Shown piece after piece: positions 6,262 through 16,032 of a stretch of 64,000 nucleotides of DNA. The DNA is from an uncultured bacterium. GTDB lineage: Bacteria; Planctomycetota; Phycisphaerae; Phycisphaerales; UBA1924. The position numbers were made by a program, and so were the translations under genes. Below the pieces are notes generated by a model that was not told the DNA's origin, searched no databases, and saw only the letters and a list, made by a program, of their open reading frames with translations. Location: positions 1-64,000 of the forward strand of contig CAILKP010000021.1 of NCBI GenBank assembly GCA_903834785.1, read 5' to 3'. Within the stretch, counting starts at the first letter, position 1; each line of letters opens with the position of its first letter.

Positions 6262-7521
6262 TTACTGGGCGGCCTGCTCGGCGATGAACGCCAGTGCGGC
6301 ATCGACCTCGGCGGGTGTGTTGTAGTGGACGAGACTGATTCGGATGACGCCATCGTCGGGATCGTGCCCGGGGAGCAGCGTGCTGACCAGGCGGTGCGAG
6401 TAGAAGTGGCCGAAGCGGAGTGCCAGGCCGCGGGCGTTGGCGGCGGTGGCGACCTGCTCTGAGGTGCGCCCGGCGAGGGTGAAGGCGACGGTGGGGACGC
6501 GTGAGGCATCGGTGGCGGTGGGGCCGTGGATGGTGATGCCGCGGATGGACTGCAGGCCGGTGATCAGGCGGTGCTGGAGCGGGAGCTCGAGTGCGGCCAT
6601 GATGCCGAAGGCACGCTCGATGGTGCTGCGGGAGATGAGTTCGTTCGATGCCGGGGTGGCTTCGCCGGCGAGCAGGCGGAGGTAGGGCTGGATGCCGAGC
6701 AGGGCAGCGCAGGCCTCGTGCGAGATGCCGCCGAGCTCGAACTTTTTGGGCCATGCATCGGCGGGCATGAAGAAGTGGTTGGGGCCGGTGACCTCGGCCA
6801 TGGCATCGGGCGTGCCAGCGAGGACGGCGGCGTGGGGGCCGAGGACTTTGTAGGTGCTCCAGGAGTACCAGTCGGCACCGAGGGCGGGCAGGTCGATGGT
6901 GCGGTGGGGTGCGAAGGCGACACCGTCGACCAGAATGCGGGCGCCGGCGTTGTGGGCCAGGTCGGCGATGGCGCGGACGTTGACCACGGAGCCGAGGATG
7001 TTGGAGACGTGCGGGAAGACGACCAGGCGGGTGCGGGCGCTGAGCAGGGGCTTGAGCGAGCTGACGAAGGCATCACCGGCGACGGGGAGATCGTGCCATG
7101 GCGTGATGGCAAAGCCGAGCTTGGCCAGGCGGAGCCAGCAGCCGATGTTGCTCTCGTGACCGTTGAGGTTGACGATGATCTGGTTGCGTGTGGCGGCGGC
7201 GGGGCTGCTGTGCGAGGCGGAGTCGGCGAAGGCATCGGCGAGCATGCGGACGAGTGCAGAGTCCGAAGCGCCGAGGATGGCGTGCTGCCAGCTGGGGAGG
7301 TTGGCGCAGCGGGCCATGAGCTCGTGGGCATCGTGCACGGTGTCGGCGGCGGAGAGCGACTCGGTGTAGCTGCCGCCGGTCTGGGCGTAGGAGGCCAGGA
7401 AGTAGTGGTGGACGGCATCGGCCACGCAGCGGGGGACCTGTGAGCTGCCAGCGTTGTCGAGGTAGACGGTGGGGGAGGCAAGCGAGGGGAACTGAGCGCG
7501 GATGGTGTCGAGCGGGGGCAT
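6262..7521 (-). CDS. Cysteine desulfurase-like class V aminotransferase-fold enzyme
   Basis: 419 residues, PLP-dependent fold type I. YLDNAGSSQVP at the start, the GHESNIGCWL helix, ILVDGVAFAPH (the Asp that contacts the pyridine nitrogen) and the Schiff-base lysine K225 in WSTYKVLGPH are clear. It resembles the cysteine-desulfurase-like subgroup (often called TIGR01976) more than IscS or SufS, and no SUF or ISC partner lies nearby. The substrate is therefore open; selenocysteine, cysteine or a kynureninase-like compound are possible. It is the last gene of a leftward run with the serpin (gap 57 bases). Confidence 0.85.
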   Translation of the reverse strand: MPPLDTIRAQFPSLASPTVYLDNAGSSQVPRCVADAVHHYFLASYAQTGGSYTESLSAADTVHDAHELMARCANLPSWQHAILGASDSALVRMLADAFADSASHSSPAAATRNQIIVNLNGHESNIGCWLRLAKLGFAITPWHDLPVAGDAFVSSLKPLLSARTRLVVFPHVSNILGSVVNVRAIADLAHNAGARILVDGVAFAPHRTIDLPALGADWYSWSTYKVLGPHAAVLAGTPDAMAEVTGPNHFFMPADAWPKKFELGGISHEACAALLGIQPYLRLLAGEATPASNELISRSTIERAFGIMAALELPLQHRLITGLQSIRGITIHGPTATDASRVPTVAFTLAGRTSEQVATAANARGLALRFGHFYSHRLVSTLLPGHDPDDGVIRISLVHYNTPAEVDAALAFIAEQAAQ

Positions 7522-14075: not shown

Positions 14076-14160
14076 GTGGGGGGTGTGGTCGCGGCCGCGG
14101 AGAGATCGCGGTGCTAGTATCGGCGGGTGTCTGTTCGGGTTTAGGTATAGGAGGTGCACT

Positions 14161-14871
14161 GTGGAACTCAGGCGGTTGCTCGTGCTGGCAAACTCAATAA
14201 AGAAGGGGGGCCGGTGTGTCGCTGGAAGAGTGCTGGAACCTGGACCTGGACCGGGTAGGGCCTTGGAGTGGTTTCGCCCAGTCAGTGAGGTCGGGGAGGG
14301 CGAGTTGCTAATGGCCGACATGCGAGTGGCCGGGAAGGCCAAGCTCCTTCCCTTTGACGTCGTGCATGTGCCTGTATCCAAGCATGCCGGGAACGCGGGT
14401 CATCCTGAAGACTGGATTGTCACTGGTGGGCTATGGCAATACGAGCGCACGGCCGACGTCGCTCGAGTTGGTGCACTTTTGGAGCATCCGCAGGACCTTT
14501 GGCTCGAACCGAACTGCAAATCAGATCGCGTGACACCCTCGTTCGCCCGTTCACTTCCGAAACTCCAATCCTTGTACTTGATTCGACCGGATAATCTCCG
14601 CATTGTTCTCGGCCAAGAGCTTTCGTGGGACAGGAGCAAGACGAAGTGGGTGCGGCGTGCCCGGTTCGGATACCAAGGAGTTCAGTATGATTTCGGGATG
14701 ACGGACCCGGAGTTCACTGACCAGTTGCCAGTGAAGGCGCCTGAGGTCGGGCATCCATTCGTCGAGTTTCCAGCGTCCTTCGGAGATAGGTCCGTGCTTT
14801 GTGTAAGCCTGACGCCCCCGTTCAACGGTTGGCATTACAAGGTTGTCGCGACCGTCCTGGCCTTGCCATGA
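14161..14871 (+). CDS. Dual OB-fold domain protein (first gene of a DUF488 operon)
   Basis: 236 residues from the GTG at 14161, chosen because AGGAGGTG (14149-14156) sits four bases upstream. The order of motifs matches the family I know as dual OB domain-containing (DuOB): LVLANSIKKGGRCVAGRVL at the N-terminus, WFRPVS, LLPFDVVHVPV, EDWIV, an NCKSDRV turn, LYLIRPDNLRIV, KWVRRARFGYQGVQYDFGMT and a final VLCVSLTPPFNGWHYKVVA. The family is thought to bind nucleic acid or a nucleotide; its function is not established. Its stop overlaps the next gene's start (ATGA). Base composition is visibly less GC-rich than mnmA or nagB, suggesting acquisition by transfer. Confidence 0.65.
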   Translation: MELRRLLVLANSIKKGGRCVAGRVLEPGPGPGRALEWFRPVSEVGEGELLMADMRVAGKAKLLPFDVVHVPVSKHAGNAGHPEDWIVTGGLWQYERTADVARVGALLEHPQDLWLEPNCKSDRVTPSFARSLPKLQSLYLIRPDNLRIVLGQELSWDRSKTKWVRRARFGYQGVQYDFGMTDPEFTDQLPVKAPEVGHPFVEFPASFGDRSVLCVSLTPPFNGWHYKVVATVLALP

Positions 14872-15497
14872 ACACGCCAAAAATCGAACATCCTGTGCTC
14901 TTCACGATCGGGCATTCCGACCACGAGATGGCGGTCTTTCAGTCGCTGCTCGCCAGGCATGGTGTGACCGCGGTTGCTGATGTGCGGTCACAGCCATACA
15001 GCAGGTTTCACGGGCAGTTCAATCGTGAGTTGCTCGCCGAGGCGCTTCGAAAGGTCGGGGTGCAGTACGTGTTCATGGGGAATGAACTTGGAGCCCGCCG
15101 CGTCGAGCGTGAGAGTTATCGTGGCAGGCAGGCCAGGTATGACCTGATCGCGAAGCTCCCGGCGTTTCAGGAGGGCCTTACCCGGCTGCGGAAGGGCTCG
15201 CTTACGCACAGGATCGCCTTGATGTGTGCTGAGAAGGACCCGCTGACATGTCATCGGACCATTTTGATTTGCCGGCACCTTCGCGCGAGCGGGCTGGAGA
15301 TCATTCACATCCTTGAAGATGGAACAGCTGAGACACACGCGGAGGCGGAGTCCAGACTGTTGGAGTTGGCCGCGCCGCCCGGTGCACTATTCTGCCCGCG
15401 GGAGCAGTTGATCGAGCAGGCGTACGACGCGCAGGCCGAAGAGATCGCGTTTACCGAGAGCGATGAATCGGCCGGAAACAAAGAGGTGATCCGATGA
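14868..15497 (+). CDS. DUF488 family protein (long copy)
   Basis: 209 residues from the ATG at 14868, which overlaps the dual-OB stop by four bases. The DUF488 pattern is complete: LFTIGHSDHEM, TAVADVRSQPYSRFHGQFN, VQYVFMGNELGAR, and MCAEKDPLTCHRTILI with the paired cysteines and histidine, then EIIHILEDG. A helical C-terminal extension (about 150-209) follows the domain. DUF488 proteins have no agreed biochemical role; the conserved Asp/Arg and Cys-x(8)-Cys-His residues look like an active or metal-binding site. The stop overlaps the next start (ATGA at 15494-15497), so the three genes are translationally coupled. Confidence 0.85.
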   Translation: MNTPKIEHPVLFTIGHSDHEMAVFQSLLARHGVTAVADVRSQPYSRFHGQFNRELLAEALRKVGVQYVFMGNELGARRVERESYRGRQARYDLIAKLPAFQEGLTRLRKGSLTHRIALMCAEKDPLTCHRTILICRHLRASGLEIIHILEDGTAETHAEAESRLLELAAPPGALFCPREQLIEQAYDAQAEEIAFTESDESAGNKEVIR

Positions 15498-15937
15498 GCC
15501 TGCAGGCATTTACAATCGGATTTGCTGAGACCTCTGCCGAACGTTTCTTTTCCCTGCTCAGGGCATCTGGTGCCAAGCGGGTGCTGGACGTGCGGCTGAA
15601 CAACACGTCGCAACTGGCAGGATTCTCGAAGCGTGATGATCTGAAGTACTTCCTGCGTGAGGTGTGTGGTATCGAGTATCTCCACATTCCTGAGCTTGCG
15701 CCGACACAGGAGATGCTTGACGCATTCAAGAAGCATAAGGGAGACTGGTCTGTCTACGAGCAGGAGTTTACCAATCTGATGGTCAAGCGGGCCATCGAGA
15801 AGAGCGTGCCTCGCGACGTGATTGATCAGGGATGCCTGCTGTGCAGTGAAAAGAAGCCGCATCACTGTCATCGGCGGCTGGTGACGGAGTATCTGCAGCG
15901 ACAGTGGGGTGACCTGGATACGAAGCACTTGCTTTGA
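15494..15937 (+). CDS. DUF488 family protein (short copy)
   Basis: 147 residues. This is a second, divergent DUF488 domain in the same operon: TIGFAETSAERFFSLL, RVLDVRLNNTSQLAGFSK, LKYFLREVCGIEYLHIPELAPT and LLCSEKKPHHCHRRLVTEYL. It keeps the CxEKxPxxCHR signature of its neighbour but lacks the C-terminal extension. The two copies share only motifs, so the pair is an old divergence (perhaps two subunits of one complex), not a recent tandem copy. A hairpin at 16003-16032 ends the operon. Confidence 0.85.
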   Translation: MSLQAFTIGFAETSAERFFSLLRASGAKRVLDVRLNNTSQLAGFSKRDDLKYFLREVCGIEYLHIPELAPTQEMLDAFKKHKGDWSVYEQEFTNLMVKRAIEKSVPRDVIDQGCLLCSEKKPHHCHRRLVTEYLQRQWGDLDTKHLL

Positions 15938-15993: not shown

Positions 15994-16032
15994 CGAAGAA
16001 CAACAACAGCCACCCGCGGGGGTGGCTGTTGT
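15994..16032. terminator. Bidirectional terminator between the DUF488 operon and nagB
   Basis: Perfect 13-bp stem (16003-16015 with 16020-16032, ACAACAGCCACCC and complement), loop GCGG. The minus side continues TGTTGTTCTTCG, so it serves the leftward nagB gene best and may also stop the DUF488 operon. Confidence 0.75.

Follow-up and report, generated by a model that had tools for sequence, protein, structure and literature searches.

A horizontally acquired DuOB-DUF488 gene cassette matching the catalogued defence candidate PDC-M45

Introduction

The described system that comes closest to the locus analysed here is PDC-M45 of PADLOC-DB 2.0.0, a trio of a dual-OB (DuOB) protein, A, and two DUF488 proteins, B and C. 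PDCs are candidates that were recognized through guilt-by-embedding in known systems, and validation is pending for most of them (PMC12988326). Some relatives of the cassette lie beside genes of a second system, Hma (helicase-methylase-ATPase; DUF499 BREX-related systems; PMC12839542). Our literature search found no description of PDC-M45, experimental ones included.

DUF488 genes are widespread. Searches of the literature for a function of DUF488 did not find one, nor did they show anything pertinent that connects DUF488 to formaldehyde or uvrA. Burroughs and Aravind reportedly predicted, in 2023, that some members of the DUF488 clade process DNA ends in conflict systems. DUF4326 has been assigned to the rhodanese-phosphatase superfamily, in which the phosphatases transfer a terminal phosphate onto a cysteine of their own (PMC9503650). 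This superfamily chemistry and the DNA-end prediction together guide our inference that the substrate of the cassette's enzymes may be a DNA end.

Results

The window (the whole stretch of 64,000 nucleotides that was analysed, from an uncultured bacterium) contains three plus-strand genes between positions 14161 and 15937, chained by ATGA overlaps that are 4 bases long at both the A/B and the B/C junction (Table 1). The mnmA gene precedes the cassette by 85 bases in the same orientation, and a nagB-like gene converges on C from the other side; the strong hairpin between C and the nagB-like gene is possibly a terminator shared by the two. In a search of the source genome, DuOB was found once, and the only DUF488 genes were B and C. 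An earlier, sequence-only reading of this DNA had described three ATGA-coupled genes for a dual-OB and two DUF488 proteins, and both the coordinates and the matches to Pfam PF22557 and PF04343 confirm that description.

Table 1. Positions of the cassette genes and associated signals in the window
Feature	Position	Strand	Evidence
Shine-Dalgarno-like AGGAGG (ribosome site, close 5' of A) and GTG start, gene A	14148..14163	+	sequence
Gene A, DuOB (dual OB), PDC-M45A, 236 aa; GTG 14161 to TGA 14871	14161..14871	+	PF22557 E 8e-43; PDC-M45A E 6e-39
ATGA overlap, A stop/B start	14868..14871	+	sequence
Gene B, DUF488, PDC-M45B, 209 aa, ATG start	14868..15497	+	PF04343 E 3e-24; PDC-M45B E 1e-72
ATGA overlap, B stop/C start	15494..15497	+	sequence
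Gene C, DUF488, PDC-M45C, 147 aa, ATG start	15494..15937	+	PF04343 E 5e-25; PDC-M45C E 5e-71
Strong hairpin between C and convergent nagB-like gene	16003..16032	.	terminator scan; fold z-score -5.4

Each of the three proteins has its own PDC-M45 model (A, B or C) as its best match, A over nearly its full length, and all three are encoded in one operon. Because all three components match PDC-M45, the system is already catalogued; judged by its sequence, the window cassette is a good example of PDC-M45 and not the discovery of a new system. An NCBIfam search of the cassette proteins gave nothing useful.

The DuOB profile covers the product of gene A over its full length, and the DUF488 domain scored above cut-off in both B and C. 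The motif CxEKxPxxCHR, which the two DUF488 proteins had been said to keep, is present in both, as C120-A-E-K-D-P-L-T-C-H-R in B and as C117-S-E-K-K-P-H-H-C-H-R in C. Its Cys, Glu, Cys, His and Arg residues (CxE...CHR) are invariant across 81 B and 89 C sequences, as are further positions, and the motif cysteine is presumably catalytic in both proteins. AlphaFold models were confident for A (pLDDT 95, mostly beta) and for B (pLDDT 94). In Foldseek, the top matches of A were the tandem-OB DNA binders HIN-200, RPA and CST (weak, TM 0.3-0.4), and those of B included PTP-type phosphatases, led by an archaeal PTP (probability 0.99, E 4.5e-3, TM 0.39-0.49); overall, the matches of both proteins were weak, with TM 0.3-0.5 and every E at least 1e-3. 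The full-length DuOB profile and a mostly-beta model with weak tandem-OB top matches point to two OB folds in A, and on this modelled structure A may bind DNA. Searching the PDB by sequence with each of the three proteins, and by profile with B and C, returned zero relatives.

The cassette differs from its surroundings in base composition. GC is 0.584 in A, 0.595 in B and 0.545 in C, compared with 0.681 in mnmA and 0.675 in nagB. GC3 is 0.646, 0.719 and 0.669, respectively, compared with 0.859±0.045 (minimum 0.78) in the 36 other window genes, and the codon-adaptation index of A, B and C is in each case lower than that of all 36. The earlier impression that this region is less GC-rich than mnmA and nagB is therefore borne out by GC, GC3 and codon-adaptation index alike: in GC and codon use, the cassette does not equal its neighbours. 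This composition is foreign to the window, and we regard the cassette as horizontally acquired.

Among sampled genomes DuOB is sporadic, occurring in 13 of 294 from the bacterium's phylum and 8 of 163 from its family. Both DUF488 genes adjoin DuOB in 11 of the 13 phylum matches and 7 of the 8 family matches, the rest being partial or near contig ends. A contig scan with the alignment of C gave 555 relatives; the best 80 of these, which come from many phyla, comprise 65 A-B-C loci, one B-C-A, four other arrangements, seven with B and C and no detected A (several at a contig end) and three with C alone. Since likeness to C decided which 80 were kept, adjacency is more fairly judged from the samples found through DuOB. 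Order varies by lineage (A-B-C or B-C-A) and adjacency persists. A 4-base overlap fits 29 of 55 A/B junctions and 25 of 50 B/C junctions, counting the nearest possible start, and the recurrence of the same order and overlap in dozens of genomes implies that the gene arrangement is not due to chance. Sequence distances of A, B and C also co-vary (r 0.58-0.71; 0 of 2000 permutations as high), as expected for co-inherited genes, with shared genome history adding to the signal. The genome search thus found a conserved A/B/C neighbourhood, not single copies scattered through core genomes.

One congener was searched (G358, 89% complete); the cassette was absent from it, and mnmA and nagB were present on different contigs. 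The closest cassette in the family (G445) has the operon alone in common with the window, and its flanks differ. We rejected a link of the cassette to mnmA or nagB, since that linkage is missing at the other loci searched. At one further locus (L039:7714-9384) the DuOB open frame carries an N-terminal extension of about 300 residues.

The sequence-only reading had suggested looking for homologues near known defence genes, and relatives are indeed sited in Hma and type III CRISPR loci, on plasmids and in prophages. At five loci (L036, L037, L051, L061 and L089) there is an HmaB-like methylase upstream of the cassette, an HmaC-like ATPase downstream, or both; the Hma family assignment was made on L051 and extended to the other four by similarity. 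On plasmid pAt1 of Allochromatium tepidum (L247:3130-16444), A-B-C lies between cas1/csx16 and csm6/cmr in a type III CRISPR-Cas locus. Elsewhere a BrxHI-like helicase adjoins the cassette downstream (L055), DinG follows B-C (L077), and SLFN_AlbA_2-type genes stand upstream of A at seven loci. At L092:6446-9358, a RecQ helicase (DEAD-RQC-HRDC) encoded directly upstream of B and C carries DuOB fused to its C terminus. Some cassettes adjoin ordinary housekeeping genes, such as those for methionyl-tRNA synthetase and formate-THF ligase. When 131 immediate neighbours and 131 distant genes from the same cassette loci were compared with PADLOC models, defence genes turned up near and far alike; because genes were called crudely and a single protein may be hit by more than one model, this near/far comparison supports no claim of enrichment.

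Ten neighbours of the cassette in the window were scanned for defence matches, with none found except a weak match to a cysteine desulfurase. The gene concerned (6265-7521, minus strand) is cysteine-desulfurase-like, weakly matches SspA/DndA and is probably an ordinary desulfurase. None of these ten neighbours matched hmaA, hmaB or hmaC, and membership of the window cassette in Hma was rejected. The cassette looks like cargo rather than part of Hma.

Several variants of the cassette occur. Where A and C are found without B in contigs of the viral collection or on plasmids, a DUF4326 protein adjoins in nearly all cases (28 matches overall), with a motif like GCFCKPxxCHGDV. These A-C-DUF4326 loci comprise viral contigs (L174, L178-L203) and plasmids (L017, L245, L246), one of them a 4.2-kb plasmid; terminase, portal or other head genes lie beside the trio in three of the four viral contigs checked. 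PADLOC models matched none of three DUF4326 proteins. Annotated phage records searched with C gave no matches; IMG/VR contigs did give C matches. Phage- and plasmid-borne versions have apparently exchanged B for DUF4326, and this version is missing from PADLOC. A third and more divergent arrangement, B-C'-A', was found in the window's own family (L141-L144) and at L009; the A' proteins tested went unmatched in PADLOC, although the Pfam DuOB profile finds them.

A final variant bears on the principal alternative to immunity. In enterobacteria and Aeromonas, conjugative plasmids carry a solo C-type DUF488 gene, 56% identical to window C, that adjoins uvrA or uvrB, frmR and formaldehyde-detoxification genes, with A and B absent (L016:9158-12432 and L018:10001-12784, the two plasmids inspected). 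Matches to C occur in 139 plasmid records, many at 56% identity, with gene context read on those two. These settings suggest a repair role for the solo subfamily, and they raise the possibility that the whole cassette is a mobile module for tolerance or repair of DNA damage (crosslinks, adducts or blocked ends), in which DuOB would bind the damage and the DUF488 enzymes would clean the ends. The RecQ fusion and the helicase neighbours speak for the same explanation, to which we give roughly one chance in four; against it, the solo C genes come without A and B, the three-gene cassette sits within Hma and type III CRISPR loci, and its variant is carried by phages.

Compact overlapping genes and relatives on small plasmids would also suit a toxin-antitoxin or addiction module with targets in the host itself. 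We consider this improbable: the components number three, the two homologous ones each carry a complete active-site-like motif, no antitoxin-like protein or DNA-binding regulator is present, and toxin-antitoxin models were unmatched. A sulfur relay for the neighbouring MnmA tRNA thiolase, proposed because DUF488 is rhodanese-like and encouraged by the close, same-strand mnmA gene, is very improbable indeed, given that mnmA is near none of the other cassette loci searched, is present in 61 of 61 family genomes searched, with the cassette in few, and occurs in the congener without the cassette.

Discussion

Overall, we favour, with moderate confidence, the reading that the genes form a nucleic-acid-acting immune cassette, a horizontally acquired copy of PDC-M45 that provides accessory immunity. 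The sequence-only reading had proposed a mobile accessory system, and the foreign composition, sporadic presence and plasmid and prophage relatives uphold this; its suggestion of a role in defence probably fits too, but it missed the existing PDC-M45 listing, and the stoichiometric complex and RNA repair that it also raised are conjectural.

How such a cassette might work can be sketched as follows. The two OB barrels of A would bind the DNA of an invader, probably as single-stranded DNA or as ends exposed by a helicase, and would then position the DUF488 enzymes B and C on the invader nucleic acid. There, a rhodanese/PTP-like active site would use its conserved cysteine to attach, transfer or strip off a phosphate or sugar at a terminus, leaving a modified invader beyond repair, replication or packaging. 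In this scheme we infer DNA as the substrate, end chemistry, formation of a complex and an antiphage effect. The chemistry assigned to B and C, modification of ends, is put forward tentatively and may well prove wrong. A broader proposal, which we also regard as doubtful, is that DuOB and DUF488-C form the core of nucleic-acid-end-modifying immune complexes in which the second cysteine enzyme is interchangeable, being DUF488-B in chromosomal versions and DUF4326 in prophages and on small plasmids. To our knowledge, the immunity chemistry of such end-modifying complexes is undemonstrated in bacteria.

With two complete active-site-like motifs and a partner that resembles DNA-binding proteins, the cassette is a compact system open to experiment, and comparing it with the phage versions, in which DUF4326 replaces B, is a natural route to the substrate. 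The copy in the window is itself just one more example of the catalogued candidate.

Set against known systems, the cassette has partial counterparts at several levels. B and C, as DUF488 proteins with an invariant Cys motif, are putative members of the RapZ-C/DUF488/DUF4326 clade of the rhodanese-phosphatase superfamily, and it is a member of this clade, DUF4326, that takes the place of B in related loci; among the rhodanese/PTP-type Rossmannoid folds, the predicted model of B gave weak matches to the PTP fold. The DNA-binding domains of HIN-200 and RPA70 share with A the use of tandem OB barrels, which in their case bind DNA, and are its best structural matches; A differs from them in that the likeness is confined to TM 0.3-0.4 without sequence relation, and in being bacterial and operon-linked to enzymes. 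Some homologous cassettes adjoin hmaB-like and hmaC-like genes or sit between them. The cassette in the window is identical to PDC-M45 in component set, but this copy, judged by the ten neighbours scanned, stands by itself among housekeeping-type genes and not in a defence locus.
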